A stretch of 64,000 nucleotides of DNA from Tolypeutes matacus (taxonomy: Eukaryota; Chordata; Mammalia; Cingulata; Chlamyphoridae), in assembly GCA_026826555.1 (NCBI GenBank), contig JAKSZT010033739.1:1386613-1450612 (forward strand), read 5' to 3'. Shown here piece by piece: positions 11,343 to 57,487 of this stretch; the stretch's first letter is position 1, and each line of letters starts with the position of its first letter. The notes beneath the pieces are model-generated. The model searched no databases, was not told the origin of the DNA, and saw only the letters and a list, made by a program, of their open reading frames with translations. The position numbers and the translations under genes were made by a program.

Positions 11343-11394
11343 ATCAACCTCAATGAACTTACACATCCTGGAGCCTTGCCACCAACCATAGACC
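11343..11394 (-). mobile_element. L1 3' UTR fragment cut by assembly gap 1
   Basis: These 52 bases are the reverse complement of L1 3' UTR sequence at about 18,095-18,146 (CATCCTGGAGCCTTGCCACC on +). The fragment runs straight into the N run. The next stretch of young minus-strand L1 starts only after gap 2 (39,457), which suggests the body of one L1 is missing here. Confidence 0.7.
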
Positions 11395-11494
11395 NNNNNN
11401 NNNNNNNNNNNNNNNNNNNNNNNNNNNNNNNNNNNNNNNNNNNNNNNNNNNNNNNNNNNNNNNNNNNNNNNNNNNNNNNNNNNNNNNNNNNNNN
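11395..11494. other. Assembly gap 1 (100 N)
   Basis: Exactly 100 N, a placeholder length rather than a measured size. L1 sequence on both sides suggests that reads could not cross a young repeat. Confidence 0.99.
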
Positions 11495-12834
11495 GACTTA
11501 CATCTCTTTTCCACTTTAATATATGTATTCAATGCTATAAAATTCCAGGTACTCCTTTTGCAGAATCTAACAAATTGTAATAGTTATATATTTATTTCCA
11601 AAATATCGTTTCTATTTCTCTTGAGACTTCTTTGACCCATGTGCTATTTAGAAGTGTTTTGTTCAATCTCTAGAGATGTTGGTATTTCCAGCCATCTTTC
11701 TGTTTTTACTTTCTAGTTTAATTTCATTGTGGTCTGAGAGCATACTTTGCATTATTTCTATACTTTTAAATCTGTTAAGGTGTGTTATATGATACATCTA
11801 GGTGAATATTTCATGTGAAATTGAGAAGAATATTCCTTCTCTTGTTGACAGATGAAATATTTCATAAATATCAATTAAAAACTAGTTGATTGATGGTGCT
11901 GCTCACTTCAGCACTATCCTAACCGAATATATGCTTGTGGATTTGCCAGGTACTGGAAGAGGTGCATTAACTTCTTCAAGTCTAATAGTGGATTTGGCTT
12001 TTTCTCCTTACAGTTGCATCCTTTTTTGTCTAAAGTATATTTATGTGCTCTTGTTACATGCATACACATTAAGTACTGTTATGTCTTTTGGAATATTGAC
12101 TCCTTGGTCATTATGTAAAATTATCCCTGATAAATTTCCTTTTTCTGAAGTCTGTTTTATCTGACATTCAATATAGCTACTTGTACTTTCTTTTAAGTAG
12201 TTTTTGCAGGTTATTGATTTCTCCATTCTTTTATTTTCATTGTATTTGTTTTTTTAATTTAAAGTCAATATCATGGACAACATATAGATGTGTTTTTTTA
12301 TGCACAGTCTCTATCTTTTAATGGATTATTACTCCATTCACATTTTAAGTGATAATCAATATACTTGTGTTAATATTTATCATATTTTTGTTTTCTTTTC
12401 TTGGCCTGTGTTCTTTGATTTTTTTTTTCTTTCACTTGTTTTCAGCCTTCTTTTATTTAATTAAACATCAGATATGACTCTATTTTTCTCCTGCTGAGGA
12501 TATCAATTCTATCTTTTTAAAATCATTTTTGTGGTTTCCCTAAAGTTTATAATACACATTTACAAGTAATCTAAATATATTTTCAAATTTCATATAGCAT
12601 AGCACAGGTAGTGTAGGTGATACATAACAGAGTATTCTCATTTCCTCCTTCCTGTCTCTTGGTTACATTCATTTCATTTACACATATGCTATACCATCAT
12701 CCAATATCATTGATCCTATTATTTTGAACAAACTGTTATCAGTTATATAATTACAGATAGGGCAACAAAATATTTCATTTTACTTTTATTTATTCCCTCA
12801 GCACTTTTCTTTGTATACATTTGAGTTTCTCACT
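11495..12834 (-). mobile_element. Old L1, ORF2 5' part and upstream spacer
   Basis: AT-rich, heavily mutated L1 on the - strand. The left end reads (on -) GGAATTTTATAGCATTGAAT, the ORF2 stretch after the endonuclease domain. Moving right come the endonuclease end (Tyr/His-Asn region near 11,650-11,760) and, near 12,480-12,830, the ORF1-ORF2 spacer. Frames are closed everywhere. The 47 bases at its left edge also occur at 39,310-39,356, where the neighbouring downstream part of the same ORF2 lies. Confidence 0.75.
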
Positions 12835-12997
12835 GTGATAGTTTGGAGCTATGTGTTCCAAAAAGCATGGTATTAAAGCTAACAATTTCTGTGAATGTAA
12901 GCCTATTTTACAAAGGATCTTTTTGATCCTTAGTTAAGATTGGTGTAGAGTGGTTATTAATCCTATTATTGAAGTTCTTTATAAACTGGGTGAATAT

Positions 12998-13001
<4 letters not shown>

Positions 13002-13043
<42 letters not shown>
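13002..13043. repeat. (GA)n microsatellite
   Basis: Forty-two bases of perfect GA dinucleotide repeat inside TIR-type copy 1. Confidence 0.97.
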
Positions 13044-13044
<1 letters not shown>

Positions 13045-13265
13045 AAGCGCCATGGAAGCAGAAGCTGAAAGCAATGAAATTTGGAAGAGACAGGAGAGAC
13101 TAGAGACACCATTATGTGCTTTGCCATGTGACAAAGATCCATGATCACTGGAACCCAGTCTTTGAGGAGAAAACACCACTGATGATGCCTTGATGTGGAC
13201 ATTTTCATGACCTCAGAACTGTAGGTTTGTAAGCTAGTAAATCTCTATTGTAAAAGCCAACCCAT

Positions 13266-13465
13266 GGGCAACATGGGAATCCCAGGGGGTTCTGTGTAAT
13301 ATTTTCGGTAATCTAAGCACCTCTTAAAATATATTTATAAATAACATTTTTGTAAACAAATGCACATATATGCATATATATTTATATATCATTTTACAAA
13401 TAGTGGTATGTATTGTGAAAATTTTGATTTTTACCCACAATAAAAAAATAAATTAATTAAAAAAA
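13266..13465 (+). mobile_element. 5'-truncated L1 3' end with target duplication
   Basis: Only the last ~200 bases of the young L1 type are present, ending in a poly-A. The insertion is flanked by the 14-bp direct repeat AAAAGCCAACCCAT at 13,252-13,265 and 13,466-13,479, the mark of target-primed reverse transcription. It landed in the right part of TIR-type copy 1 and is therefore younger than it. Confidence 0.92.
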
Positions 13466-13523
13466 AAAAGCCAACCCATTACTCACATAATGCTTTCATA
13501 GCTGTAGCAGACTAGAACAATAA

Positions 13524-14251
13524 ACTTTATCATTTTCTTTCTAACTGAAGAATATCTTTCAACATTTCTTGCAAGGCAGAAATTTATTATATATTATGCT
13601 AGTTGTGTTGTCTGGTAGTAAGTATATTTTAATGTAATTTGGCTTTTATGGCAACAGGGATTAAAAGAAATAGGGGAAAAAGAAAAAAAAGTTTTGTTTG
13701 ATAAGGCCCCTTGTAAATAGTTGTCATCAGCTGTAGGTTGGCTGTCCAGACTGATTCTGCACCCTCATTCTCATTTGTGAAGGTTTTTCCTTCTGGTTTC
13801 TTATTTTAATTAAAAACAGTGCATCTTTTCATCTGGAAAGTAGGTGCGTTGTTGGGCAATGGGGAGAAGTTGACTTGGGTGCGAGCTGAAGAGTGCTGTA
13901 GCCTCTTGGTTACTTGGAGGTTTCCCACAACTTAATTGGCTGATGTTCAGAATGACAGGTAACCTCACTATAACTCAGTAAACTGTGGCACTTACACCTG
14001 CCTGAGATAATTCTACTTCAGATTTAATTTCTTAAGCAAATGGGAAGCAGTGATTAATGCTTTTAACATTAAAACATTTCTGTGAATCTACCCTGTCCTC
14101 AGGGTGCTCTGTGGTCAAGGAGCAGGTATGTGAAAGGGAGTCCCTCCCATTCTCAGCAAAGATGGCCATCTACCCCACTCCTACCCCAAAGGTCTGTGGA
14201 TTCTGGACCCTGCCTGATGGGTACATCCTCACCCTTTGGGTGTGTGGGCAC
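13524..14251 (+). other. Flank of copy A, possibly mRNA-derived
   Basis: About 700 bases of moderately complex sequence with no coding frame worth naming. It directly precedes the block shared with copy B but is absent from copy B, where the ACVR2B coding relic sits instead. If copy A is a piece of the ACVR2B 3' UTR, this would be its more upstream part. That is inference. Confidence 0.4.
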
Positions 14252-17200
14252 AAGGTGCTGTGGGGGTGAGCTGCTCTCAGAGCTCAGTTTTTGCTTCACA
14301 GGTCAGAACATGGGCTGGCCAGGGTGGTTACAGGGACAGCATTTTGTTGTTGCTGTTAAATGTGTCTTTTTTTTTTTTTAAGAGCAAGCAGGCCTTAAAG
14401 CAGTTGCTTTTCTTTTCCACTTATTTCTTTAAGAAGCTTTAAAATATTTCTTGAAATGTACCATATCTAATTTCTTGAGTCCTCTCCTCAGGCAGTGCTG
14501 GGCATCTCTCCTTGTCACCCCCAGAAGAAACAAACAAGCCTAACAGATGTAGCTAATTGACTGCAAGAGTGACCTACTCACTGATCCTGCCCAGTGCTGG
14601 ACCCTGCCCACCCCACCCCAGGGTGTTGGATTTCTTCTGGTGATCCTTCTTCTGTGTGTGTGTCCTGGCTTGAGGCTAGGGAGGACACATTTTGGCCTGG
14701 CCATGGGCAAAGTTGACCTGGGCCCTGGTTTGTGGTCTGCTGGTCACGCCTTTCTGTTGGCCACATCCTCTTATCCAGGTTGGCTCCCTCTTCACAGGCC
14801 CTGTGCTCAGCTGTTGTAGTGTCCCTATGGGACCATGGATCTGGAAGGAACTGTCAGGAAACAGGACCTGTTTGGAAGATGGGAGTGGGAAAATGGACCA
14901 AGGGCCTGTGCCAGCCCTTTGGGCTTCCGGCTGTCTTTTGCCCTTGTGCTGAGGTGTGCAGTGTGCCCATTGGTCAGCTCTTCTGGCTGCCCACAACAGA
15001 GGCTGGGCAAATTCCTTGTAAGTAAAGCTTTTCCTTGTAGAAAAGCCTGGCTTTGGGCCTTTTCTCCCAGATAACATGTCCTTTGCCATCTTACGTTCTT
15101 TGGGGACTGAGCTACCTAGAGCTCTGCTCTGCATTTATTAGGCCTGAGGTCTGCAGCCTTCACTCTTCTCCACAAAGATTTCATGTGACATCCACTTCCA
15201 GGGATAACAGGTATCTGCTCCTTTAAAAAAAAATTTGCCCAAAGTTGCTGGCAGACTGGCAGGAGTGGAGTGAGGCCTGGATCACTTCTGCTGCCCATGG
15301 GAGGGGCTGATCCACCTAGGGCAGGAAACCAAGGTGGGGGAGAGGCCACAGAGCTTGCTCCATCCTGCCTAGAGCACTGTCATCCAGGCAGGCTCCTGGG
15401 TATGGGATGGGTCTTGAGGAGATTTCTGTTCTGTTTGTAATTGCCCAGGATCACTGTAGGGAGGTCTCTAGCTGGGGAAATACAGGAGTGAACAGGAGAA
15501 AGAGGAAAATGTGGGCACTGAGGCCACCACTGCAGTGTCCTGTAGCTGGGGGCAGGCCTGGCCATGGGCAAGGCTACCTTAGTGTCCTGGTCTGGCTGAA
15601 GAGTTTATTCTATGGGGGCCACCCATGACTAGCAGTGGTGCTTCTTCAAGTGAGGGACCTGGGGGTAGCAGGGACTGCAGGTGGGCTGTGCTCAGGGGAG
15701 AGCATCATCTCTCTGTGTTGTCCAGTGTGGCCTTCCTACCCTGTGGGCTATGGGTGGGCTCACAGAAGGGTCAGTCCCCATGTGTGCCAGCTGCTTCTGA
15801 CTCTGAGTTCATCCTGCTTTGTCTCTGAGGGCATTTGTGCAGAGAAAGAAGGTCACAGTCCAGTCTTGAACATCTTTCAGAGGCTAGTGCCCTCTCACTT
15901 GTTCTCAGCAAATGGCAGCATCTCATCTGCAGGCCACCTGGGGAGTTCTTCCACTGCCCCAAGGGGCAGGGTCCACCTCTTGACACTGCTCAATGCTGTA
16001 GAAAACCAAGTTAAGCATGACCTGCAGTCCTGCTGTCCCCTTCTCCCACCAGCCATGCTCTTGCTCCCAGCTGACCTGCCCTCTACACTGGGTGCCTGGG
16101 CTGTGTGGGAGTCTCCTGGTGGTAAGTCTGGCTGTGTATGAGAGCCCACCACATTCAGCCTTGCCCCTCTGAGCCTTTTGAATTGAATTTTGTCTTTTTT
16201 AATATTAAATGTAAATTTCCCAGCACCTCCTGGTAATATAAGGATTTGATATTTTAAAATTATATAGTGAGACTAGGTACATGAGTTTTTGAAATGATAC
16301 TAATAATAGCCCACTAGTCAGGCATTATTCCTGAGAACTTGGCTCACTGAAGAGAAATATCTAAATTGGAAAGCAGGTTTCCAGGAATTGGCTCAGTTTG
16401 TGTTTCTGTTCCTGTTATTTCAGCCTGTTGGGTGCTGGTGGTTCACCTTTGCATAGTTGGCCAGGCCTAGTTCCCATCACAAGGACCAGACCACACTTGT
16501 CAAGAGGCACAATGAATCTGCTCCCTCATCCCCAGCCTGGTGAAGCAACTGGGAAGGGAATAAGTGGGGGTGTTTTTTTCTCCTCATTTGTATTATATGA
16601 ATTCTCAGTCAGTGGCTGCTTGCAAAACTGAAATAATAGAAAACTCAGCCTTTATGTGCTCAAGCTAGGGATAATGGGTTTTAGATAAAGAAACAGACCC
16701 AGTAATTTCAATTGATGATCCATATGCCTTATCAGTCTAGACTTGAAAATGTTCAATAAATTCAGGGTTAGAAGCATAGTGCTTCAAGATCCTTGGTAGT
16801 TGATTTGTAACCACCTATGAATGTATCCCAAACATGTGGAAGGTTTGGGAAAGTTTTTTTAGATGATTTTAGATGATTGAAGTTTAAAATGCCCCCTTGG
16901 AAATTATTTCAGTTGACTCAACCACCTTTTTTTTTGTTTTTGTTTTTTTTTTTTTTTTTTTTTTAGCTAAAATGACTTTTATTTTATGTATATTTTACCA
17001 GAATTAGAAATAAATATATTTAATGAAAGAAAAATGGAACTAAGGAGAAAATATGTATAAAAGACAGGGTGTAACTTTTTTTTTTCCCCCACCTCATTGT
17101 TAAAATGTTGCTTCATTAAAGAAGCCTTTATACTATCAAAAATTATCTGGTGGAATTTCTTAAGCAATTTTTTGAAATATATTCATATATCTAATGGGAT

Positions 17201-17550
17201 ATTTTTAATGTTCCTATTTTACACTCATTTTGGATCCACTGAAAACCTTGGTTTGGAAAAGATTTTGATTTAAAGGTATTTACCAATATTTAAATTTTTC
17301 CCAAGTTTTTACATTTTTCATGACAGTATCTTCCAGGTTTGAATGAAGCAAGACATTTTGATTGTGGTACTCCATGTATCCCTGTAGTGCCAAAACTAGT
17401 GATACTTTATTTGCTACTATGGAAGCTTGTAGAAATAGCATAAGTTCTTTTTGTTGATGTTTTGTTTTCCTCATATGACTTAAAAAACCTGTTCTCTAAA
17501 TGCTGTTCTGTGGTGACTTGCCCTGCACTGCCCTTTGTTCTTGAAGAGCA
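14252..17550 (+). repeat. Copy A of a 3.3-kb inverted duplicated block
   Basis: This block matches 57,488-61,178 on the opposite strand along its whole length. Anchors are AAGGTGCTG (14,252 and 61,178), GCAGTGCTGGGCATCTCTCC (14,492, with a near match at 60,885), the run around GATCCACCTAGGGCAGGA (15,308 and 59,575), and GGTACTCCATGT (17,366 and 57,667). In a 78-base sample near 17,370 I count roughly 11 differences (~14%), so the split is old. Orientation follows ACVR2B as sense. Because copy B continues directly into an ACVR2B retrocopy, the block may be ACVR2B 3' UTR; I cannot confirm this without a search. A 168-codon open frame (15,635-16,141) lies inside; see findings. Confidence 0.88.
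16929..17085 (-). mobile_element. Small antisense retro-insertion in copy A
   Basis: A long poly-T (16,929-16,964), then AT-rich sequence ending near a T-rich run at 17,077-17,086. The matching place in copy B (about 57,935-57,960) lacks it, so it entered copy A after the two blocks separated. The short CCACC on both sides could be what is left of a target duplication. I cannot name the source. Confidence 0.45.
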
Positions 17551-17693
17551 TCTGTGGATTCTCAAGGACCCACTACTACAAGCCAAGCACAGGACACTGA
17601 AGAAATGTACACATAGGCACATACATGTATACACTGGATTATACAGACATGAGCTACTCTGGACAATTGCAGAAAAGTGGTACATTGATTTTC

Positions 17694-18415
17694 TTTTTTT
17701 TTTTTTTATTATGGGTAAAAATCAAAATTCTCACAATACATACAAACATTTGCAAAATGATATATAAATATATATGAATATATGTGTATTTGCTTACAAA
17801 AATGTTATTTATATATATATATATATACATATATTTTAAGAGGTGCTTAGATTACCTAAAATATTACACAGAACGCACTGGGATTCCCATGTTGCCCACC
17901 TCCCACACCTCCCACCAGTGGCCACTTGACAGTTTTTGGGTAGGGAGGGGATGAGCAGTTGAAATACAGGGGCTTCTTTGGGAGTTGGAGGTTGTCCTGA
18001 GTACTGTTGTGGCAATGGATGTAGGCCATTTTAAATCAGCACACACCTCTCAGAACTGAGTGGGAGAGAGTGTGGTCTACAGTGTGAACTGTGGTCTATG
18101 GTTGGTGGCAAGGCTCCAGGATGTGTAAGTTCATTGAGGGTGGTGGGCCACACTGTGGGAGATGTTTGTGTGGGATGTGGTGGGAGGTGTGGGAGGTGGG
18201 CAACATGGGAATCCCAGTGGGTTCCGTGTAATATTTTAGGTAATCTAAGCACCTCTTAAAATATATGTGTATATATATATATATAAATAACATTTTTTAA
18301 GCAAATACACATATATGCATATATATTTATATATCATTTTGCAAATGTTTGTATGTATTGTGAGAATTTTGATTTTTACCCATAGTAAAAAAAAAAAGTA
18401 AAAAAAAAAAAAAGA
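17694..18415. mobile_element. Two L1 3' ends in inverted arrangement
   Basis: Left arm (17,694-17,918) is the last ~225 bases of the young L1 3' UTR on -, starting with poly-T. Right arm (17,919-18,415) is ~490 bases of the same 3' UTR on +, ending in poly-A after TTTTTACCCATAGT. The terminal ~225 bases are present in both arms, so the segment is an imperfect inverted repeat with tails facing outward. Ordinary 5' inversion during L1 insertion would not place the same terminal piece twice. Confidence 0.82.
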
Positions 18416-18453
18416 ATATAGTTTAATTTCTTCTTCCCCAATATGTATAACAT

Positions 18454-19163: not shown

Positions 19164-19164
19164 C

Positions 19165-22630: not shown

Positions 22631-22649
22631 CTTTCTCACCAAAAAATGG

Positions 22650-24249
22650 TTGAAAGGGGACAAGATGCCGTTTGAGTGAGTTGTTTGTGGAACCCACAGA
22701 GAAGGAGGCTTCAGGGCATTGATATGAAGGGAGATGGATGAAGAGATAAATTCTTCAATGTGCTGCTGTCTTGATCCTTGCTTGCTGTATTTTCTTTTCC
22801 TTGATTATCGCTTTTCTGTGTATACAGATTTTTTCTACCAACACTGTCTCTTTTCCTTCCTTCATCATTCTATCTTCTGCTTTCTGTTGTTGTTCTTACA
22901 TTCCACCTCTCTTTACTTAGTCTTCAATTTTTCTAGATTTTATTTCTATATCGTATATCCTGTTTTCTTTCTTTTATTAATTTTTTTTCTTTTTATCTTT
23001 TCTCTTTCCCTCTCTCCTCATCATCCTGGGAATTTAATTCATTCTATATATTTTTCTTTATTTGGTTTCCCATTTCATTGTTGGTACCACACTTTTTTAT
23101 TCCTATTACTATATACTGCTTAAATGAGTTAAATTTTCATTTTGCAAGGTCTTATATGGATCTTCTTCTAACAATCACTATTATCCATTTACTTTTATTA
23201 CCTCTTTCACTTTCACTGGCCCAAATTTTTTCCTTCAAGGGAACATAGACAACAGCAATGAAATAGAATAAGAAGAACAAAGTGTCAAAGAGAAAACTTA
23301 ACACACACAAAAACAGCAATTAAATAAAACCCTAGAGAAAAGACAGAATATAATCAACTGAGTAAATCCATCAAGATAAAAAGATGACCAGAGGGCAATA
23401 AAAAATTACAAACCATACTAAGAAACAGGAAGACAAGGCTCAGTCCTATGAATGAACTAAAAACCAAGAAGAGGTACAGAACATAGAACAACTAATCAAA
23501 GCTGCCCAAGAAATATCAGGGACCAACTTAATGAAGTGAAGGAAGAGATTAAGGATATTAAGAAGACACTGGGAGAACAAAGAAATTGTAAATGTACATA
23601 AAGAGATAATGGATATGATGGTGATGAATGGCAAAATCCAAGAAATCAAAAAGATACTGGAAGCACATAACAGCAAATTTGAACAGGTGAAGGAAATAAT
23701 TAGTGGTGTAGAAGACAATACATCTGAGTTCAAATTGATAGTAGAAGAGATAGATAAAAAGATAGAAGAAATCCAGCAGGAACTTAGGGATATGAATGAC
23801 AACACAAAATGCATGATAGGCATCCCAGAGGGAGAAGAGAAGGGAAAGGGGACAGAAGGATTGTTGGAGGAAGTAATGACTGAAAACTTCCCAACCCTAT
23901 TGAGGGAGATGGATGCAAATGCCCAAGAATCACAGTGCACACCAAATAGTATAAAGCCCAACAAGCCTTCTGAAAGACATACACTCATGAAACCTTTCAA
24001 TACTCAAGACAAAGGGAAAATACTCAAGGCAGCAAGAGAAAAGAGAGCCATTGCATACAAGGGAAGCTCAATCAGAATAAGAGCTAATTTTACATCTGAA
24101 ACCATGGAGGCAAGAAGGCAATGGTATGACATAGTTAAGGTACTAAAAGAAAAAAACTTCCAGCCAAGAATTCTCTATCCAGCAAAACTGGCATTCAAAA
24201 ATGAAGAGTTCAAAGTATTCAAAGATAAACAGATATTAAGAGAATATGA
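22650..24249 (+). mobile_element. Host L1, 5' half (interrupted by L1-B)
   Basis: Starts near a CAAGATGCC box (22,661), has a shortened pyrimidine-rich leader, then a broken ORF1 from about 23,384. The open part 23,609 onward reads MDMMVMNGKIQEIKK, FEQVKEIISGVEDNTSEF and MTENFPTLLREMDANAQ. Early stops (CAATAA just after the start) and deletions around 23,500-23,590 make it a relic. The element stops at the 11-bp repeat AGAGAATATGA (24,239-24,249) and resumes at 32,907. Confidence 0.86.
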
Positions 24250-25849
24250 CAGGGAGAGGAAAGATGGCATCAGTTTAGGAGGGTACTCACTGAATAGCAC
24301 TCTGGGGATGGCCGATTGTGGACAGGGTCCTGCCCGAGGGTCTGTGCTGTGGGATCATGGAGCAAGAAGCTTGGGTCATCTAGCAGTGGGCTGATTGATG
24401 GCATGGAGTGACCAGTGGAGATTCGTGAGTTTTGAGCCTGCCTGTGGTGGTTAACACAGATGCCTGAGCCCCACCCACAAGGAAAATAACTGGTTTGAGC
24501 CACGAATCCTGCACCCACAACCCCCACTCTCGGTGCGAGGGAGCATATTCTGAGGGAGGGAGGGCTCTGACAAAGGTGGAGAGGGGTTTAACTTCTGGAG
24601 ATTTGGCTGCCTGGACCCCCTCATAGCTTTGGGGAGCAGATAAGATGGCTTGAAACAGTGCCAGGCTGAGGGGAGAGGTTAATCTGCTGAGGAAACATGA
24701 TTTACCCAGCAGCCCAATGACACTGAGGCTTGGACACAGAGGGGGAGGAGTTAGTCAATTTTATTGCTTTGCACTGACAAGCATCAGAGCTTCAGCTCCC
24801 CTGGGAAGGCCAGGAAGTGGGAAGGGCTTGATTAGGTTTCACGAGCTTATTTAGGGTCCCCTCGGTGAAGAGGGTGATCTAGCAGAGGACTAATTTTGGG
24901 TCCCTTATATTGCCAAAAAAAAAAAAAATAGTAGACAGTCACTTTATAAAATGAATTCCTGTTCTTAATTTAGTTTAATACTGAAAATCTGCCTCAAAAC
25001 CTGCAGATAGAGCCCTGAAGGGAAATTGATAAATGCAAGCAGGCTGAGAGGATCCGCAAGGACCATAAAAGGAACACTTCCTCCTTAGCTTTGTTTGACT
25101 GCTTGCTGGTGTGGTTGTTTGGTTTCTCTCTGTTTATTTGTTGTCTCTTGCTTTTCTTTCCCCTTTCTCCCCCCCTTTTGCTTTCCTTCATTTTTTTTTT
25201 TTTTAATTAGGTGCTGCTAGCTTACTTCTTCTTTGCTGTTCTTCTCCTTCAGTGAGTTCCCATTCTCTGTCTATATTGATATTGTATCCCAAGCTATTTC
25301 TTATCCTTCCTTTATCTCTTTGCCTTCTGCTTTCTGTTGTGGTTCTTAGACACTAAGCTTTTTCATTAGCCCACAATTAATGGGTGTCAATTTCTAGACT
25401 ATTTTGTTTTCTTCTTCTTTTTAAATTAATATTAGCTTTTTCCTTTTAACCCTTTATTTACTCTTTCTCTCCCTCCTCATCATTCTAGCCTTCTAAATCA
25501 TTATATATATGTTCCTCTATTTGGTTTCCCAGTCCATTGTAGGTACTCCAGTTTTTTCCCCATTACTCTACATGCCTACACAAGTTAAATATTCATTTCA
25601 CTAAGTCCTATTTGGCCCCTCTTCTAACTTTTATCAATATTAGTATTAACCTTCTTCCTTTCTCACATCTTTTGATTCCTCTGGCACTAATTTTTTTGCT
25701 TTCAAGGTAAACATAGAAAGGAGCAAGAAAACAAAATAAGAAGAAAAAGTGTCAAAGAGAAAACTTAACAAACACTCAGAACCACCAGCTAAATAAAACT
25801 CTAGAGGAGAGAGAGAAGCTAATCAACTGAATAAACCTAGCAAGATAAA

Positions 25850-26760
25850 ATGATGACTAGAGGGCAACAAAAAATTACAAACCACACTGAGAAACAAGAA
25901 GACATGGACCACTCCAATGAACAAACTAAAACCCAGGAATATATGCAGAACATCGAACAACTAATCGAAGATTCCCAAACAAATATCATGAACCAACTTA
26001 ATGAAGTGAAGGAAGAGATTAAGGATATAAAGAACACACTGGGAGAACATACTGAAGAAATTGTAAATGTACGTAAAAAGATAACAGATAAGATGGTGAT
26101 CAATGGCACAATCCAAGAACTAAAAAAATGCTTGATTCACATAACAGCAGATTTGAACAGGCAGAAGAAAGAATTAGTGACGTGGAAGACAATACAACTG
26201 AAATCAAACAGTAGAACAGATAGACAAAAAAAAAATAGAAAAAGTACAGCAGGGACACAGGTATTTAACTGACATCACAAAGTGCACAAACATACGCATT
26301 ATGAGCATCCCAGAAGAAGAGAAGGGAAAGGGAACAGAAAGAGTGTTGAAGGAAATAATGGCTGAAAATTTCCCAACCCTATTGAGAGAGACGGATGTGC
26401 AGATCCAGGAAGCACAGTGCACCCCTAATAGTATAAATCCCAACAGGCCAACTCCAAGACATATACTTGTCATAATGTCCAATGCTCAAGACAAAGAGAA
26501 AATACTCAAGGCAGCAAGAGAAAAGAGAATCATCACATACAGGGGAAGCACAATAAGATTAAGGGCTGATTTCTCATCTGAAACCATCAAGGGAAGAAGA
26601 CAGTGGTATGACATAGTCAAAGTATTAAAAGAAAAAAACAGTCCAGCAAAGAATTTTTTATCTAGCAAAACTGGCATTCAAAAAATGATGGAGAGTTCAA
26701 AATATTCACCGATAAACAGAAATTAAGAAAGAATGTCAATAAGAAACTGGCACTTAAAGA
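25850..26760 (+). pseudogene. L1-B ORF1, broken
   Basis: Starts MMTRGQQKITNHTEKQEDM, with the coiled-coil part NQLNEVKEEIKDIKNTLGEHT in the first 100 residues. A frameshift near 26,120 disrupts the coiled coil. The C-terminal part is open at 26,301-26,726 in another frame (AENFPTLLRETDVQIQEAQ, then NPNRPTPRHILVIMSNAQDK, then ADFSSETIKGRRQWYDIVK). It normally encodes the L1 RNA chaperone; here about 300 codons are spread over at least two frames. Confidence 0.86.
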
Positions 26761-26770
26761 AATACTAAAG

Positions 26771-26876
26771 GGGGCATCGGATGTAGCTCAACTGGTTGGG
26801 CGTCCATTTCCCATATGGAGGGACCCAGGTTCGATTCCCGGGATCTCCCGGTAAAAAAAAAAAAAAAAAAAAAAAA
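26771..26876 (+). mobile_element. tRNA-only SINE inserted in L1-B
   Basis: An 82-base tRNA-like body plus poly-A, bounded by a ~15-bp target duplication (AAAGAAATACTAAAG at 26,756; AAAGAAATATAAAG at about 26,874). The body has an A box (TAGCTCAACTGG), a B box (GGTTCGATTCC), and a possible anticodon arm TCCAT-TTCCCAT-ATGGA whose loop would present CCC. Unlike the SINEs at 41,861 and 51,190 it has no extra 3' body. It sits in the ORF1-ORF2 spacer of L1-B and is the youngest layer of that nest. Confidence 0.9.
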
Positions 26877-27007
26877 GAAATATAAAGGAAGTTCTACAAG
26901 TTGAAAGGAAAAATAAAGGGAGAGAGAGTGGGAGGAGAGTTTAAAAACAACTGAAAATACAAAAACAGAAACAAAACAACATATGATATACATTAAACCA
27001 ATGAAAA

Positions 27008-30000
27008 TATGGCTGAAGTTAGAAATTTGTTGTGAGTAATAACAATGAATGTTAATGGATTAAATTCACCACTCAAGAGACAGATTGGCAGAATGGATGA
27101 AGAAATATGATCCATCCATATGCTGTCTACAAGAAAACAACCTTTGACCCAGGGACTCAAGGAGGCTGAAAGTAAATGGCTGGGAAAAAGTTTTACAAGC
27201 TAACAATAGCCAAAAAGGGCAGGAGTAGCTATTCTAATATCGGAAAAAATAGACTTTAAATGCAAAACTATTGTAGAGACAAAAAAGGACACTATTTATT
27301 AGTAAAAGAGGTAATCTCTCAAGAAAAGAGAACAATCATCAACATTTACACACCTAATCGGGGTGCCACAAAATACCTGAGGCAAACTCCTGAAAAGCTA
27401 AGTGGAGAAATATATGCCTCTACAATTAGAGCGGGGGACATTAATACACCATTATCATCATTAGACAGAACATCTAGACAGAGAATAAATGAAGGAACAA
27501 AGTCTCTCAACAATACATTAGAGGACCTGGACTTAAGAGACATATGCAGAATATTACACCCAAATATAGCAGGATTTACCTTCTTCTCGAGTGCTCATGG
27601 ATCATGCTCCAAGATAGAACACATGCTAGGCCACAGAAAAATTCTCAATGAATTAAGAAAGATTGAAATTATACAAAGTAATTTCTATGATCACAATGGA
27701 ATGAAATTAGAAATCACAAAGGGCCAGAGAAACAGGTTAGGCACAAGGATATGGAAGTTAAACAACACACTCTTAGACAAACAGAGGGTCAAGGAGGAAA
27801 TCTCAAAAGAAATCAGTAACTACCTTGAAACTAATGAAAATGACATCACAACATATAAAAACCTATGGGATGCAGCCAAAGCTCTCCTGAGAGGGAAGTT
27901 CATAGCCATAAATACATGTATTAAAAAAAGAAGAAAGAGCTAAAATTGAAGACCTAACTGCACCCTTGGAGGAATTGGAAAAACAAAAACAAACTAAACC
28001 TAAATGAAGTAGAAAGAAGGAAATAACAAAGATTAGAGCAGAACTAAATGAAGTAAAGTATAAGAAAACCTAGAAAAAAATAAACAAAACCAAAAGCTGG
28101 TTCTTCGAGAATATCTATAAAATTGATGAACCCTTAGCCAGACTAACAAAGAAAAAGAGAGAATAGAAGCAAATACATAAAATAAGGAATGAGCAAGGTG
28201 ATATCACTACTGACCCCACAGAAATAAAGAGTATCATAAAAGGATACTTTGAAAAATTATATGCCAACAAGAATGATAATTTAGAGGAAATGGACGAGTT
28301 TCTAGAAACTCACAAACAGCCTACATTGATGAAAGAAGAAATTGATGAACTCAACAGTCCAATTACAGGTAAAGAGATAGACCCAGTCACCAAAAACCTC
28401 CCAACTAAGAAGAGCCTAGAACCAGATGGCTTCACATCTGAATTCTACCAAACATTCCAGAAAGAGCTAACACCAATTCTGCTTAAGCTCTTCCAAAAAA
28501 CAGAAGTAGAAGGAATATTGCCTAACTGATTCTACAATGCCAACATTACCCTAATACCAAAACCAAACAATGATACCACAAGAAAGTAAATTTACAGGCC
28601 AAATTCTCTAATGAACCTAGATGCTAAAATCCTCAACAAAAACTTGCTAATCGCATTCAGCAACATAGAAAAAGAATTATACACTATTACCAAGTTGGTT
28701 TCATCCCAGGTATGCAAGGATGGTTCAATATAAGAAAATCAATCAATGTAATACACCACATAAACAGAATGAAAGAAAAAAATCACATGATCATCACTAT
28801 AGATGCAGAAAAAGCATTTGACAAAATACAGCACATTTTCCTGATAAAAACACTGAAAAGATAGGAATAGAAGGAAACTTTCTGAATATGATATATATGA
28901 AAAATCCAAAGCTAACATTGTCTTCAACGGTCAAATCCTAAAAGCCTTTCCTTTGAGATCAGGAACAAGACAAGGATGCCCACTATCACCACTCCTATTT
29001 AGCATTGTCTTAGAAGTACTTGCTTAAGCACTGAAGCAAAAAAAGGATATAAAAGCATCCAGATTGTAAAAGAAGAAGTAAAAATTTCATTATTTGCATA
29101 CGAAATGATCCTATACATAGAAAACCCAGAGAAATCTACAACAAAGCTCCTAGAACTTATAAAGGAGTTCAGTAATGTTGCAGGCTATAAGATCAATGCT
29201 TAAAAATCACTACCATTTCTGTACACCAATATTGAGCAATCAGAGGAGGAAATCAAGAAAAAATGTCATTAACAATAGTAACTAAAAGAATCAAATACAT
29301 AGGAATAAATTTAATTAAAGATATAAAGGACTTATATACAGAAAACTACACAACACTGGTAAAGGAAATCAAAGAAGACTTAAATAAATGGAAAAATATT
29401 CCCTGTTCATGGATAGGAAGACTAAACATCATCAAGATGTCTGTCCTACCCAAACTAATCTACAGATTTAATGCAATCCCAATAAAAATCAACAGTATTT
29501 TTTTTAGGTACTGGAAAAAACTAACCACAAAATATATTTGGACATGTAAGAGGCCCCGAATTGCCAAAGACATATTGAAAAAGAAAAATGAATCTTGAGG
29601 TATCACATTACCGGACTTTAAAACATATTACAAAGCTACAGTGATCAATCTGCATGGTATTGGCACAAGGATAGACCTACTGACCAATGTAATTGAATTG
29701 AGAGTTCTGATATATATCCTCGCATATACAGTCATCTAATATTCAACAAGGCTACCAAGCCCACTCAGTTGGGAGAGAATGGCCTCTTTAACAAGTGGTG
29801 CTTGGAGAACTGGATATCCATATCCAAAAGAATGAGAGAAAAAATACCATCTCACACCTTATACAAAAATCAACTCAAGATGGATCAAAGATCTAAATAT
29901 AAGAACCCAAACAATAAAGACATTGGAAGATAATGTAGGAAAGCATCTACAGGACCTTGTAATAGGAAATGATGTCATGACCTGCAAAGCCAAAGCAAGA

Positions 30001-30625
30001 GCAGCAAGAGAAAAAGTAGATAAATGGAATCTCCTCAAAATTAAAAACTTCTGCACCTCAAAGGATGTTATTAAGAAAATAAAAAGGCAGCCTACCAAAT
30101 GGGAGAAAATATTTGTCAACCATATATCATATAAGAGCCTAATATCCTGCATATATAAAGAAATCCTACACCTTGAAAATAAAAAGACAACCCATTTAAA
30201 AAAAAAATGGGCAAGTGACCTGAAAAGACACTTCTCCAAGGAAAAAATACAAATGGCTAAAACGCACATGAAAAAATGCTCAACATCGCTTGTTATCAGG
30301 GAAATGCAAATCAAAACTACAATGAGATACCATTTTACACCCCACAAAATGGCAGCAGAATGGCAGCTAATATATATATATATGCATACCAATGTTCAAA
30401 GTGGCATTGTTCACCATTGCCAAAAGTTGGAATCAGCCCCAGTGTCCATCTACAAATGAATGGATAAGCAAAATGTGGTACATACATACAATGGAATATT
30501 ACTCAGCTGTAAGAAGGAATAAAGTGCTAACACATGGAATAACGTGGATGAGTCTTGAAGACCTTATGTTGAGTGAAGCAAGCCAGGCATTGAAGGATGC
30601 ACAGTATATGACCTTACTGATTTGA
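27008..30625 (+). pseudogene. L1-B ORF2, broken
   Basis: The endonuclease start is damaged by several indels. A 227-codon open part (27,260-27,943) keeps [28 protein letters not shown] and [11 protein letters not shown]. Reverse transcriptase pieces follow: [20 protein letters not shown] (28,350), [10 protein letters not shown] (28,806) and an altered palm motif near 29,093 (FAYEM where FADDM is expected, losing the catalytic aspartates). The C-terminus ends [17 protein letters not shown] to a stop at 30,623. The zinc-knuckle region between 30,350 and 30,390 is deleted relative to L1-A. Confidence 0.92.
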
Positions 30626-32906
30626 ACTGAGGAAATTGAGCTGTCTCTGGGAACCATTGTCTGAAAGATAGATTAACAAGGGAGAGAAGAGTAGGCTGTG
30701 AGCCATCACCCTTATGGACATAATCTATGGTAAAGGGATAGAGTATAGTTGCATATTGAAGGATAGGACAGATGCCTAGTGATATTATGGGTTTGGTGGT
30801 ACAGGGTTGACAGGTGGGTAGATTAGGACGGGCAGGTTGGAATGCCCAGGGCATGTAACTATGAATCTTATCATTCCATGAGTCAAGGGTTACAATGGGT
30901 AATGAGTGGAGGATGGTGTCACGGTACACTGGACATCTGATAATGCAGTGATAAAACGAAAAAAGAATAATATTTTTTTAAAGGAATTTTTTTGTTTTTT
31001 TTTTTCACATTTTTTTGAATGTCCCAATCCGCTAATTATATTTTATTTTTAGTTTAGTTTTTTTTTTGTGTGTGTGTGTGAATTTCCTTGTACTTATGTT
31101 TTGCATTTAACCTTATAATTATTATTTCTTTTTCCTATTAATTATATTTGGTTATTATATGGGCTTCATCTTCAAGGAAGGTTTAGATCACAGAAGGGTT
31201 ACAATGGGAACTGCAGAGGATCATTGGTGGGGGGTGTCTGGGGTGGGGGCTTCATAGGAATAAGTTTATCTGAATATCCATGAAAGATATATAAAATTTT
31301 TCAAATGATCGAGGGATGGGGCTTGGTCACGGTGGGTAGACAATCACTCAATAAATGAGGGAATCTGATTTCCCAGGCTGGAGAGCTCTGCCACATTCTC
31401 CAAGAGAGCAGCAACAGTCCCCTGAGTGTAGGAGCAATATCTGACAAAAGAGGATTGCCCACTGATGGCTTCTTGTTATTGATGACTAACCTTATGGGTC
31501 TTGGCTCTCGTAATTGTACCTTAGCTTACTGTTATGGGGTGCCTAAGGGTTGCCACCTGAGAGCCTCCTTGTTGCTCAAATGTGGCCTCTTTCTAAGCCA
31601 AACTCAGCATATGAATGCATTACCTTCCTCCCAACGTGGGACATGACTCCTGGGGATGAACCTCCCTGGCAACAAGGGATTAATACCAAGTGCCAACTGG
31701 CAACATGATTGGAAAAAGACCTTGAATAAAAGGAGGAAAAGGTAAAGAGAAATGAGTCCATGTAGCTAAGAGACTTCAAAGAGAGTCAGGAGCTCAACCC
31801 AGAGGTAAAGCTTACGTACACCTCAGTAGTATCTCATAGAACAGCAAAGTGGATATCACCCCACACATAAGGGCTCCTGAGGGATCTGGAGACACCCAGG
31901 TTCTATATAAGGGAGATAGCCCCAGAGATTGATGCCTTATTAGTGGGCTCTACTTTGAAATCTTTGTCCTGAGAGTGACAGAGTTGGACTCAAATAAGTC
32001 CTCCCTGCACATGTTCCATCTGTCCCTTCGATTCAAACCTATATTTGGTTCTGGAGTTTGTAGGTGTACTTCCAGTGCCTGTAACATTTGACCTGCCAAT
32101 GTACCAGCTGTGCCTGGAACCTCAGTGGAGCTGTAACTTCTACTCTAAAAATCAATGGGCTCACCAAGCCATCGGGTGAGGAGATAATGATGGACAACGG
32201 CCATCCCAGGGAATGGACAGAGTCTGCAACTGCAGGCAGAATAATCCCATCCATCTTATCCAAGGGATATAAGCACCCTCATATGGACGTGGAATGGACA
32301 TCACCATCCCAGTCCCCTGAGGATTGGGGAGAAGCTATGGACTAGAGCAGACTAAATGGTATTCTGTTCTAGACATATTGTGATTCAAGCAATGGAAGAA
32401 ATTATAACAGTGAGATGGAGCCTGTGGCCACTGGATGCTTTCGGGGCAGGGAGGAGAAGGGCAGTTGAAATATAGGGGCTTTTTCAGGACTTGGGGGTTG
32501 TTCTGAGTGGCGTTGCGGTGACAGATGTAGACCATTTTACATCAGCATATACCATGCAGAACTGTGTGAGAGAGACTGTGGTCTATGATGTGAACTGTGG
32601 TCTATGCTTGGTGGCAAGGCCTCAGGATGTGTATATCCATTGCGGGTGATGTGCCACACTGATGAAGGATGTTTGTGTGGGATGTTGTGGGAGGTGTGGG
32701 AAAGGGGGTACATGGGAATCCCTGTTATTTCCGTGTAATATTTAGGTAATCTAAGCACCTATATATATATATATATAACATTTCTGTAAGTAAATGCACG
32801 TATATGCATATATATTTATATATCATTTTACAAATATTGGTATGTATTGTGAAAAATTTTATTTTTACCCACAATAAAAAATTAATTGATTAAAAATAAA
32901 AGAGAT

Positions 32907-34885
32907 AGAGAATATGAGAATAAGAATCCTGCCATCAAGAAATACTAAATGGAGTACTTTAGGTTGAAAGGAAAAAGAAAAAAACAAGAGAAGAGAGAGT
33001 AGGAGGAGGGTATACAAACAATTAAAAAGACAAAAAGAAAAATAACAATATATGACATATATAAACACAAAGAAAATATGGCTACCATAATTAATTCCTT
33101 GAAAGTAATAAAACTGAATGTTAATGGATTAAAATAACCAGTCAGGACACACAGATTGGCAGAATGGATAAGGAAATATGACCCATCTATATGTTGTTTA
33201 CAAGAAACCCACCTTAGAGCCAGGGATTGAATGGCCGAAAACAACCTTACAAGCAAACAATAACCAAAAAAGGGCAGGAGTAGCTATAGTAATATCACAC
33301 AAAATGGACTTTAAATGCAAAATTATTGTAAGAGACAAAGATGGGCACTATATATTAGTGAAAGTGGTAATCTTTCAAGAACAAAGAATAATCATAAACA
33401 TTTATGCACCTAACCAGGGAACCTGAAAATACATTACACAACACTGGAAAAACTAAGTGGAGAACTAGATACCTCTACAATTATAGTTGGGGACTTTAAT
33501 ATACCATTATCACCATTAGACAGAACATCTTGACAGAGAATCAATGAAGAAACAAAGACTTATTAATACATTAGAGGATCTGTACCTAATATTCATATAC
33601 AGAACACTACACCCAAATACAGCAGGATATACATTCTCCTTAAGTGTACATGGATCATACTCCAAGATAGACCACATGCTAGGCCACAGAAAAAATCTCA
33701 ATGAATTCAGAAATATTGAGATTATACAAATTAATTTCTATGACCACAATGTAATGAAATTGGAAATGAGTAAGGACCAAAGAACCAAAATAGGCACAAA
33801 TATAAGAAAGTTAAACAACACACTCTTAGACAAACAGTGGGTCAAAATAAATCCGTAAAAATCTTGAAATGAATGAAAATGACAACACAACATATCAAAA
33901 TCTATGGGATGCAGCAAAAGCTGTAATAAGAGGAAAATTCATTTTCATAAATGCATATATCAAAAAAGAATAAAGAGCTAAAATCGAAGACCTAACTGAA
34001 CACTTGGAAGAATTAGAAATAGAACAACAAGGTAACCACAAAGGAAGTAGAAAGAAGGAAATAAAGATCAGAGCAGAACTAAATGAAATAGAAAATAAGA
34101 AAGCACTAGAAAAATAAACGAGACCAAAAGTTGGTTCTTTGAGAAGATCAATAAAATTGAAAAACTCTTACCCAGACTAACAAAGAAAAAAAGAGAGAGG
34201 ATGCAAATACACAAAATAAGAAATGAGGAATGGGATATCAAACTGACCCCACAGAAATAAAGAGTATCATAAGAGGATACTTTGAAAAATTATATGCCAA
34301 CAAGAATTATTTAGAGGAAATGGGCAAATTCCTAGAAACTCACATGCAGCCTACATTGACAAAAGAAGAAATTGATGAACTCAACACACCAATTACAAGT
34401 AAAGAGGTAGACTCAGTCATCAAAATCCTCCCATCTAAGAAGAGTTCAGGACCAGATAGCTTTACAAGTAAATTCTACCAAACATTATGGAAAGAACTAA
34501 CACCAATCTTCCTTGAACTCTTACAAAAAAATAGAAGTAGAAGGAACATTGCCTAACTCATTCTATGATGCTAACATTACTCTAATACGAAAGCCAAAGA
34601 TGTCACAAGAAAGGAAATTTACAGACCAATCTCTCTATTGAACCCAGATGCTAAAATCCACAAAAAGTACTTGCCAATAGCATTCAACAACACATCAAAT
34701 AAATTATACATCATGACCAAGTGGGTTTCATCATGGTATGCAATGATGGTTCAACAAAAGAAAATCAATCAATGAAACACACCACATAAAAAGATAAAAA
34801 CAAAAATCACATGATCATCTCTGTATATGCAGAAAAAGCATTTGACAAAATACACCATTTCCTGATAAAAACACACAAAATATAT
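32907..34885 (+). mobile_element. Host L1, 3' half (ORF1 end and ORF2 to RT)
   Basis: Continues the L1 broken at 24,249: the end of ORF1, the spacer, then ORF2 from about 33,078. Readable pieces are DFKCKIIVRDKDGHYILVK (33,310), GYTFSLSVHGSYSKIDHMLG (33,629), TSKEVDSVIKILPSKKSSGP (34,400) and [11 protein letters not shown] (34,825). It stops within the reverse-transcriptase region at about 34,885, so the element is truncated or deleted at its 3' side. The many stops fit an older insertion than L1-B. Confidence 0.9.
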
Positions 34886-37800
34886 GTTGTTCAAGTAACT
34901 AAGAATCTTGTCATCCAAGGAGTAAATCCAGGGGGTTGCCATGGGTCCCAAGGAGAGGGGGGAGGGAGGAATAGAATAGATGGAACAGGGGGTATTTAGT
35001 GGGCAATGGAAGTGTTTTACATGATCTTGCAATGATTCCAGGTTCTTCCTGCTCTCAGGGCTGATTTCAAGCTGCTTGTTCTCCTGGAAGTTTTCCTTCA
35101 TTCTACATACAACCCATGCAGAGGGAGGTGTCAGCATTGTCTCTTCTTATCAAATTCTTCCCATAAACATAAGATGAAGCCATGTGCATGTAGCTGTGTG
35201 ATGTCTTGCCCAGGAAGGACTCTGATTTCCACCTCCATCCCACCCCACCTTAGCCTCACCCCCCACAACGAATGCCACAGTTGTTCACCTTCCTTGTTTT
35301 GTCAAAATTGATCATCCTCCCCTGGAAGGCATCCAGTTTGTATCCATTATAATGGGGACCCCAGCCATTACCATCTCCACTCCCCCTCCCTCAGTCATGC
35401 TGCGCTACTGCAGGGTCCACCAAGGGCTGGGATGGCCAGACCAGGGATGCACCCAGGCAGGCTTCAGAGATTCAGGAGAAGGGACCAGGATCAGAGAAAA
35501 GCAGAACCTCCAGTCCCACCCTATGATGGCAGATGGAGAGATGACCCCTTGGACCAGCCTCAGTTTGCAGGTGTGTAAGATCGTCTTGGCTCTCCTCCTC
35601 CCAGGAAAGCTGTGAAGCTCTCATGAGACTCAGTGTGCCCAATTCTGAGAGCTCAGGTCTCAGGGAGGGGACTGTCCTCGCAAACATCAGGGATGCCTCA
35701 CTACCCTTATGCAGGGCCCAGGCTCACTCACATCCACATACTCCTACATCACTTAGTCCACCAAAATCAATTGGGTAGAGAATGTCCCCAGATACAGGAC
35801 AGTGCCCTGGATGTCATCCTGAAAATTCTTCAGCCTCAGACACTTAGGACCACCTGGCCTTCCCCTGGGACAGTCTGAGAATCTTAACTGCCTCTCCCTA
35901 AATTCTCCTCCCAACTTCCAAGGATCCAAAACACCTTACCCATCACCTTTCCAGACCAGCTTTTGGTAAACCATGAAATTTACTCCCTGCCTCCCAAGTC
36001 CACACTGATTTGGGCTGTTCGAGTCTCTTACTATGACTGGCTGTGACTTGTCCCCCCCAGGATTATAGCTGCTCATGGCCATAAAGGCTCCAGAAGTGGG
36101 AACATTGGATGGGTGCTTTCCAGGCATGTTGGCACATGGAGGGAAGGGAACAACCAAGACCCCCACCCTGAAACCAGCTGGGTCTCCTCTTAGCCATAGC
36201 TTGAGATGCACCCAGACCTTACCAGGGAGCTGTAGGGAAGGGTGTGTTGGCACAACTGTGTCCAGTTAACAGGATGATCTAGGTGAGGAAGCCAGACAGT
36301 AATGCAGAGGGTCCTTCATGGAGTTCTTATCTGTTGAAGGGGCACAGGTAAGGGGACCTAAGAAGGTGACCTTACTTCCTTGGTGAGAGAACCCAACAGA
36401 GCTTGGAACCCTGGTAACCAGGCACCCAGATTCCACAGGCAACCCCTTACCCAGTTCACTTGGCAGGAGACACTCAAGATAGCAACATGTTCTCCTGCTG
36501 CATTCCTAGATCCTGAGGCTCCAGCCTCAAGAAAACTAAGAATGAGTCCTTTTTCCATCACTTTTGATGTTAATTAGCCCTCAGCCATGAAAAATCTGGT
36601 CATCAGCCAGGAGGTACCCAAAGGTAGCACAGGTTGGCCCAGGGCTCATCAATTCAGCACATGCCACCATTGTGATCCTTCCTGGAAAACTCCACATCCC
36701 ATCACCCTCCCAGTATGTGGGAGGCATGAGCAGTGGGACCACCCTGGGCAGGAGCAGGCCATCAGTGGTGGGAATCCAGTATGTTCTTCCTTTTCACCTC
36801 CCAGTTCATGGATGGTAGGTTGGGAGGGCACATGTTGGGGGTGGCACCATGTGTACCAGTGTTAATCTTGAGCTCTCAAGTTGCCAGCGAAGGAGGGGAA
36901 ACCAGGGTGATGAGCAGGGGGAACAGAGGAAGTGGCTGGAGGCAGTTTTGCTCTGGGGCATTGGAACCCACACTTCTTACAACATACCATTGGACTCATA
37001 TATGGGGATGGGGAAATATGCCAAGCTGATGGGCATAGGGATCCCCAAGATTCCAGGGCACACATGACTGGTGCCAGCACTAAGAAAACCTTGAAATGAT
37101 AGGCCTTGGGACAGAGGGTCTCCAGATACCTGGGACTTGTAGCATTGTTTTCAATACTGCATCCATCCCTTTCTTGTAAGTCTTCTATGTCTAAATGTAT
37201 GTGATAGGTACATGTGAAACAAGCCTATACAGTTTACAGTATTCATCCTGAATAGACTTGATGATATACCCAGGAAGCAGATGCTAGAATATTTCCCACT
37301 GTGCCATGGAAGATATTAGCCAGCTTCGGTGACTATTCTCAGTTCACAAACCTAAAAAAAGAAGTAAGCAGGTCTGTTCCAGGTGCCCAGAGCCTCTCTG
37401 CCCTCTCTTCTGGATATCTGGCACCATGGAAGAGGGTGTCAGGGACTGTCCAAGCCATCTTGGAACTGAAAGCTGGGGAACAGTAGAGTTGGGGCTACCA
37501 ACATGGTATGTGATGACCCATAGATGATGATGAGGTGTTTTGGAAATATGAAAATGCACCCACTCCAGAGGGGCAAATCAAGGCAGGCTTCCTGGAGGAG
37601 TGGACAGCAAAGTGAGTCACTGGGAATTGTTCAGATGGTGAGAAAGGCATGTTGGGAATATCATACCTGTCTGGTGACCAGCATGGGCATGGAAGTGCTG
37701 GAAGAGTTCCCATAGGCTGTGAGTGATGTTTGACTGTAACTTTAGTGGAAGGTGGCCTTAGCCATGAAGGGAAGAACTGAAGATTAAGATGTGGGGCCCA

Positions 37801-38510
37801 TTGCAAATGTGGCTGCAGGCATGTCTTACCTGTGGTTCATTAAGGTGGAACCCCCAAACATTAAAGCTTCAGTGACCACAAAACTTTGATCTGTCCTGAC
37901 ACCTGTATTTACAGAAACTTTAGACCTGCTGCTCTAGTGGCAGGGCTGAGGTCTCCCAGCTTGGATTCTGCCCCACATACACCCAAATTTTTTGCCTCTT
38001 TTTCCTGCCATTAACCCACACCCAGGCCATTTATTTCTTCCCAATGTGAAGAATAATGTAGACTTGCCAAGAGCGGAACTAATAGGTGTGGAATAGTTGA
38101 TTAAGACAAGCTGTAATGAACATAGCAGTCAAATATTCAAGGGTTTCCTGCATGCATATAAGCAATAGGCTAAAAAGGGAAAGTGCTGACTCCCATTTTA
38201 CACGATTTTCCCAAGAAAATTGCTTTGTAAGCTCATATGTCTCAGTGCAGATGAAGGCAACTGTCTCGGTGATGCAGGAGCCCTTAACAAAAATTTACTG
38301 TCTGTTTATGTAAGTGGAGCCTGGGGGTTGGGGAACAATGGGGTGGGGAAGTATGGAAAAGAACTGAGAAATGATCCCACTTGAAAAATGTGCCTTCTGA
38401 ATTCTCCCACACCACACAGGAAGGTCTCAGCTTTGCCTGGGTCAACCCAGCTAATGGGCACTCACCAGTTCCAGGTAGCTGTAGACTGGTCCTCTTGCTC
38501 CCATTCTGTC
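34886..38510. other. Unassigned, fairly GC-rich sequence
   Basis: About 3.6 kb with clearly less A/T than the surrounding L1s and no L1, SINE or TIR signature I can recognise. Open frames up to 105 codons occur on both strands (for example 35,936-36,253 on - and 37,495-37,806 on -), but none resembles a known protein or has convincing exon borders. It may be unique intergenic DNA, a lost gene, or a decayed duplicate. Confidence 0.55.
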
Positions 38511-38935
38511 TTTTAAAGTGCACAAATCAGTGGATTTTTGTATAAGCACAAGGTTGTTCAATCATCACCACTATCTAGTACCAGGGTATTTTCATCAACT
38601 TAAAAGGAAACCCTGGACCCATAACAGTCATTTGCCCCCACTTCTTTTCCCTTATCCTTTAGTGACCTCTAATCTATTTTCTGTCTCTATGTGTTCACCT
38701 ACTCTGTACAGTTTACATAATTGTAGTCATACATATGTCTCTTTTGTCTCTTGCTTTTTCACTTAGCATAATATTTTCAAGGACTCTGATTGTTGCAAGT
38801 ATCAGTACTTCATTACTCTTTATGGCTGATAATATTCCATTATAAGGATTTACTGTATTTTAAAAATCCATTCCTCAGTTGATTAATATTTGGATCACTT
38901 GTTCATCTTGGTTGTTATGAATAATGCTACTTTAG
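38511..38935 (-). mobile_element. Old L1 3' UTR fragment
   Basis: On + it reads AAAGTGCACAAATCAGTGG, CAATCATCACCACTATCTAG and TTTTTCACTTAGCATAAT, the well-known antisense reading of old mammalian L1 (L1M-type) 3' ends. No coding part. Confidence 0.65.
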
Positions 38936-39079
38936 GTATTCTAGAAAAGGTTTTATGAGAAAGGCTGAATTAATTTTGCCACAATATTAGTCAAATGCTT
39001 GCAAACTAAATTTCAGTATAAGATCCTTATGTTTTTGACAATGATAAAACCATGAAAACAAAGTAAGCTCACAAATTTA

Positions 39080-39220
39080 AATGATTTCATTTGACAAATA
39101 TTTATTGATCATTTACTGCATATCTAGGGTCCTGGAGATACAACACTGAACTAAAGATAGATCTCCTTCCTTCTTGGCTTGCACTGGCCTGGGGGTGCAC
39201 ACAGTGAACAAGTAAAGAGA
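39080..39220. repeat. Possible LINE-2 remnant
   Basis: GACAAATATTTATTGATCAT with CTGGAGATACAACACTGAAC resembles the ancient L2 3' region seen across mammals. Too short and diverged for certainty. Confidence 0.35.
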
Positions 39221-39221
39221 C

Positions 39222-39356
39222 AGACTCCTTATCTATTTCTTTTCTCAGCTTACTTGATGTTTATATAGCTCTTCTTTCCCTAGTTTCCTAAGGTGGGGAT
39301 TAGACGATTGACTTACATCTCTTTTCCACTTTAATATATGTATTCAATGCTATAAA
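39222..39356 (-). mobile_element. Old L1 ORF2 fragment ending at gap 2
   Basis: On the - strand this reads GTCTAATCCCCACCTTAGG, then GAAACTAGGGAAAGAAGAGC, the ORF2 stretch directly downstream of the part at 11,495. Its last 47 bases (39,310-39,356) are identical to 11,495-11,541, so the two fragments join into one continuous L1 if the contig ends are overlapped. Confidence 0.65.
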
Positions 39357-39456
39357 NNNNNNNNNNNNNNNNNNNNNNNNNNNNNNNNNNNNNNNNNNNN
39401 NNNNNNNNNNNNNNNNNNNNNNNNNNNNNNNNNNNNNNNNNNNNNNNNNNNNNNNN
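39357..39456. other. Assembly gap 2 (100 N)
   Basis: Exactly 100 N. The left side is old L1, the right side is young minus-strand L1-C. Confidence 0.99.
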
Positions 39457-57471: not shown

Positions 57472-57487
57472 TCTGGAAGTACAACAC

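Follow-up and report, generated by a model that had tools for sequence, protein, structure and literature searches.

According to its description (PMC5411770), the assembler Supernova builds a graph with k = 48 in which abutting edges overlap by k-1, raises the effective k to about 200 by means of read pairs, writes 100 Ns for a gap bridged by read pairs and represents an unresolved cycle as a path followed by 10 Ns. For the twin-primed (5'-inverted) L1, PMC2837659 describes a layout with target-site duplications around two inverted fragments of one L1 and an internal deletion. Collapsed tandem duplications and extrachromosomal circular DNA would also yield a contig with overlapping ends, and a self-closing contig is easily mistaken for either circular DNA or a duplication.

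Here, we describe such a contig in a stretch of 64,000 nucleotides from Tolypeutes matacus (contig JAKSZT010033739.1 of assembly GCA_026826555.1), referred to below as the window. Printed between two gaps of 100 Ns (11,395-11,494 and 39,357-39,456), it starts and ends with the same 47 bases, named D. With a probability of about 90%, the circle suggested by these ends is an assembly artefact: the 27.8-kb contig would be a linear genomic segment, presumably present in a single copy, that was misjoined via the 3' pieces of two L1 elements, opened as a loop at D and reversed. The features that bear on this reading are as follows.

11,339-11,347, plus strand: left target-site duplication GAAAATCAA, directly before the inverted L1 piece
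11,348-11,394, plus strand: left-flank copy of the 47-base sequence v, the last 47 bases before the gap, belonging to an antisense L1 3' piece
11,495-11,541, plus strand: left copy of D at the contig start, from base-for-base comparison and whole-assembly search; by our reading of the letters it presumably lies inside ORF2 of an old minus-strand L1
11,495-39,356, minus strand as judged from the order in paralogs: the contig, whose loop measures 27,815 bp
17,685-17,693, minus strand: right copy of the target-site duplication GAAAATCAA, which immediately follows the poly(A) once the contig is reversed
17,694-18,139, minus strand: twin-primed L1, with an inverted upstream piece (17,915-18,139) and a sense 3' piece with poly(A) (17,694-17,914)
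18,093-18,139, minus strand: interior copy of v, a probable 47-base vertex at the switch between two L1 3' ends, next to the putative false junction 18,139/18,140
18,140-18,413, plus strand: poly(A)-bearing 3' end of a second L1, apparently inserted between 18,414 and a sequence named Q
39,310-39,356, plus strand: right copy of D at the contig end, from base-for-base comparison and paralogous loci

The two copies of D are identical base for base over exactly 47 bases and each adjoins one of the 100-N gaps, just as the initial annotation had stated. In the animal's own assembly (3,625,713,217 bases; 3.63 Gb), D occurs exactly three times, and every occurrence is located at the edge of a gap. 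The third one, C4781:71,820-71,866, differs from the contig at the 48th base. Three gap edges of this kind are the signature expected of a 47-base graph vertex, that is k-1 for k = 48, and the overlap had already been recognised as K-1 for K = 48. For k itself, 48 would be the value suggested by two independent overlaps of exactly 47 in the window, the second being that of v, together with the gap edge in C4781. Five other L1 copies in the window share only 29-34 of the 47 bases with D, which makes it implausible that two unrelated old L1s would both carry all of its private changes; a chance sharing of D by two separate old L1s was therefore ruled out. The same applies to the idea that an L1 lying in the gap had D as its long target-site duplication, since no copy of D follows the 5' end of the L1 in the right flank.

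When overlapped at D, the contig ends had been read as one continuous L1, with a junction leading from 39,356 to 11,542. Such continuity alone proves little, because any two in-register L1s sharing a 47-mer look continuous. Independent proof that the reading is true was obtained from paralogous loci. A search with the left end of the contig gave 39 matches besides the window, and among the eight loci that were read (L002-L008 and L048) seven run unbroken across D, entering on the side of 39,356 and leaving on that of 11,542, with 83-96% identity, the eighth, C4781, being interrupted by a gap exactly on D. By the evidence of these loci, the adjacency of 39,356 and 11,542 is true chromosome sequence.

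The key to the layout is a second 47-base overlap, which the initial annotation, correct about the overlap of the ends, had missed. Read in reverse complement, 18,093-18,139 gives the last 47 bases of the left flank (11,348-11,394); the match is exactly 47 bases long and starts, in the left flank, right at the L1 boundary. Next to it, the nine bases of GAAAATCAA are duplicated on both sides of an L1, linking 11,347 to 17,685. The inverted upstream piece of this L1 corresponds to positions of about 10,592-10,814 of L1#1 and the sense 3' piece runs from 10,859 to the poly(A), about 44 bases of L1 being absent between the two. With a target-site duplication on both sides, an inverted upstream piece, a sense 3' piece with poly(A) and an internal deletion, the element is of the same kind as the twin-primed L1s described in PMC2837659; it is ordinary in kind, except that its print is divided, with the left edge in the flank on that side and the remainder in the contig. 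Because of the duplication of GAAAATCAA around the element and the overlap of v, the left flank would continue into the contig at 18,092 and downward, in reversed direction.

The same arrangement was found from the side of the paralogs. A search with window positions 17,540-17,690 revealed five matches, one of them the window itself and the others the paralogs C1801, C951, C4007, and C4752. In all four, 17,691 leads directly into 11,347-11,258 and then from 1,719 downward, without either L1. A model of this empty site aligned over its full length across the join in each of them, with 163 of 175 identical positions in C1801, 151 of 175 in C951, 146 of 175 in C4007, and 141 of 178 in C4752. When a piece of the left flank served as query, C1801 was the only one of these four to be matched besides the window. 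The contig thus most likely belongs beside the left flank, in opposite orientation, as far as paralogous sequences can tell. The true order beside the left flank then reads from 18,139 down to 11,495, through the D join to 39,356 and down to 18,093. That the contig is printed back to front follows from the left-flank join in the four paralogs and is independent of any analogy in orientation. The left flank also harbors a full-length plus-strand L1 (1,708-11,257), which is absent from the four paralogs of its site and is bounded by an imperfect target-site duplication beginning AAAAGAC at 1,707 and 11,258.

On the other side, the homologues of 18,414 upward in C2010 and C4781 stop at the edge of the poly(A) and are followed by Q, a sequence of 687 bases that is 94% alike between these two contigs and has no match in the window. 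Q from C2010 gave 43 matches as a query, spread over many contigs, and 12 loci were fetched, C2010 included; in all 12, the 18,414 side passes straight into Q with no L1 between. These loci were picked by their match to Q and not by the adjacency of 18,414 and Q, and the count covers 12 of the 43 matches. In two of the contigs, C4168 and C4169, the coordinates of the Q match coincide (1,284-1,743), and these two may be duplicate records or haplotypes. Going by these loci, the right-hand neighbour of the contig would be something other than 17,691, and the paralogs do not show it to be the printed right flank, though that flank presumably follows Q. The body of the second L1 probably lies outside the window, in missing sequence. 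Two further L1 features of the contig and its right flank are relevant here.

22,760-34,884: nested L1s, a full-length plus-strand L1 (about 24,251-32,900) in an older L1, with AGAGAATATGA at 24,239 and 32,907
39,457-41,877, minus strand: right-flank L1, the 5' half of another L1, comprising what we take, by our own reading, to be ORF1 and the 5'UTR, cut in ORF1 at the gap edge

A common insertion of the right-flank L1 and the L1 that ends at 18,413 was considered and rejected, as no matching target-site duplication was found; since the two have no such duplication in common, sequence must be missing between them. The full-length L1 at about 24,251-32,900 was examined as a chimera, and hence as the false join, and ruled out as well, the older L1 being present on both sides and AGAGAATATGA at both edges. 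A short L1 3' end was also observed at 13,254-13,479, between two copies of AAGCCAACCCAT at 13,254 and 13,468 that represent its target-site duplication.

The contig could have arisen from these elements in the following way. At its true left end, the segment would carry the short twin-primed L1, whose insertion at GAAAATCAA separates the left flank from 17,684, and at its true right end the second L1, inserted between 18,414 and Q. Both L1 3' pieces would point the same way and would have in common at least v, and perhaps up to the 225 bases of 17,915-18,139. A direct repeat of 48 bases or more at the ends of a segment would turn it into a loop in a k = 48 graph; as for such a repeat here, v is printed at 11,348-11,394 and 18,093-18,139, and the empty sites put one L1 3' piece on each side. 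The assembler, most likely one for short reads, would have joined the 3' end of the second L1 (18,140-18,413) to the body of the first, closing the loop, and this wrong resolution would have severed both Q and the left flank, whose last base is also the last of v. The loop would then have been opened at D, a vertex because the C4781 paralog shares exactly 47 bases, and laid reversed in the scaffold.

Compared with the graph cycles of Supernova described in PMC5411770, the contig is alike in that its ends have exactly 47 bases in common, a third gap edge carries D again and v lies in the interior. It differs in that the loop is placed between two 100-N gaps instead of being written as a path with 10 Ns, and in that it was cut away from the causative repeat; the use of Supernova itself would be our reading of the overlaps. 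By the same source, an effective k of about 200 should resolve a repeat of 47 bases, and the two L1 pieces would therefore have to be alike over most of the 225 bases. The conventions of 100 and 10 Ns do not fit the proposed layout neatly. A 10-N gap, the mark of unresolved cycles in the Supernova paper, is present at C4304:42,269-42,278. Among the titles found by a literature search, none names this artefact, and the word Supernova is absent from a sloth and anteater genome paper.

It is quite unlikely that this animal underwent a true recombination of the two L1 3' pieces, with a 27.8-kb tandem duplication or a circle as its product in a segmental duplication that bears an immunoglobulin V, and with the junction at 18,140 being real beside the linear form. 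The same contig would result if a real duplication or circle had arisen later in this animal, and the paralogs, about 79-98% alike over the joins, would point to the ancestral order, from which the window copy could have been rearranged afterwards. Taken by itself, a real tandem duplication is quite improbable; its 27.8-kb unit would stem from unequal recombination of the two L1 3' pieces, with the copies collapsed by the assembler. Recombination could act on the direct repeat v, segmental duplications make up the region and the path of the contig through v is continuous, although a short repeat should be resolved at the effective k of about 200 given in PMC5411770. However, a repeat in common is enough to force a loop in a k = 48 graph, which makes the duplication superfluous, and the printed junction 18,139/18,140, which occurs in the window contig, has no full counterpart among 31 other loci (5 of them all N): the neighbourhood 17,691/18,414, compared with them after removal of the L1s, gave matches in six, none along the whole length. 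In L031 and L033, loose alignments extend 37 bases beyond the 17,691/18,414 join, and both loci follow the left flank there.

That the contig is correct as printed, its two D copies stemming from two different duplicated units, we regard as very unlikely. Paralogous units do exist, D is exactly common to C4781, and the 100-N gaps may mean read-pair links; if the assembler was Supernova, such bridges, as defined in its description, would favour the printed neighbours over the proposed layout. Yet the printed order requires a real 17,691/18,414 neighbourhood, contradicted by all four paralogs on one side and by all 12 fetched loci on the other, and leaves the 47-base overlap of the left flank and the target-site duplication unexplained. 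It is extremely improbable that the segment exists as a real extrachromosomal circle, whether through recombination of the L1 pieces or as an excision circle of an immune receptor. Though the contig ends do close up in a true D join and an immunoglobulin V pseudogene is present in the window, the paralogs show the neighbours of the segment on both sides as ordinary sequence, the join points are L1s, and no recombination signal was found in the window with five heptamer forms, a spacer of 22-24 and at most two nonamer mismatches; moreover, one would expect an assembly to show the linear form in preference to a rare circle. A collapsed tandem duplication and an extrachromosomal or circular form had both been put forward in the initial annotation, and for neither was positive evidence found here, the paralogs accounting for the loop without either. 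Its remaining candidate, a graph circle wrongly placed, came closest of the three; the left neighbour is right, as seen in the four paralogs, but the contig most likely belongs there in the other direction and opened at about 18.1 kb, not at the gaps. The putative false join near 18,140 sits where nothing had been flagged.

The assembly artefact, our preferred reading, concerns a region that belongs to a family of segmental duplications, and two pseudogenes of the window are part of its context.

52,301-52,759 (V part 52,301-52,594), minus strand: immunoglobulin heavy V pseudogene with leader and two stops, which we take to be VH3-like from 67% identity to a human germline protein
57,487-62,880, minus strand: processed pseudogene of activin receptor type 2B (ActRIIB) with 3'UTR, containing a stretch of 102 amino acids that matches ActRIIB chains (best E 1.8e-19); its outer limits and 3'UTR are presumed, being assigned by eye

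A second copy of the 3'UTR part of the ActRIIB pseudogene, 79-83% alike, was found in the contig at 14,240-17,548, and a Pfam search with one pseudogene piece gave no family. The segmental-duplication family comprises 11,495-39,356 and 57,487-64,000 of the window together with C1962, C2010, C4304, C4781, C1993, C4453, C951, C4007, and C1801. Its members share, in partial combinations, V segments, the ActRIIB pseudogene, the D region, and Q.

As a further clue to orientation, V segments were sought in the contig by tblastn with human V proteins and none was found above chance, so the V segments of C4304 and C2010 were used instead. These contigs carry one and two V-like pieces, respectively, on the minus strand (E < 1e-6), the strand of the window's own V pseudogene, and the homologous segment is found there with window positions descending; in C4781, the part that was fetched revealed no V-like piece. 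Further along the same scaffold, a copy of the D region (C1962:1,463,440) has the direction opposite to that of the contig as printed. Q, with three copies on C1962, is of mixed direction there, with 1,367,536 and 1,493,296 on the plus and 1,344,440 on the minus strand, and because they point both ways, orientation by analogy is a weak, supporting argument.

The true order on the left and across D could be read from paralogs of the same genome, with no need for reads, and the combination of gap-edge 47-mers, target-site duplications and empty sites in paralogs provides a recipe for other such contigs. About 27.8 kb are most likely printed back to front and wrongly opened, and gene order, orientation or rearrangement taken from this stretch of the scaffold would be wrong. 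The feature is most likely ordinary in kind, ordinary mammalian DNA and not a real circular feature, and the locus may be a greatly expanded or fragmented immunoglobulin V region.
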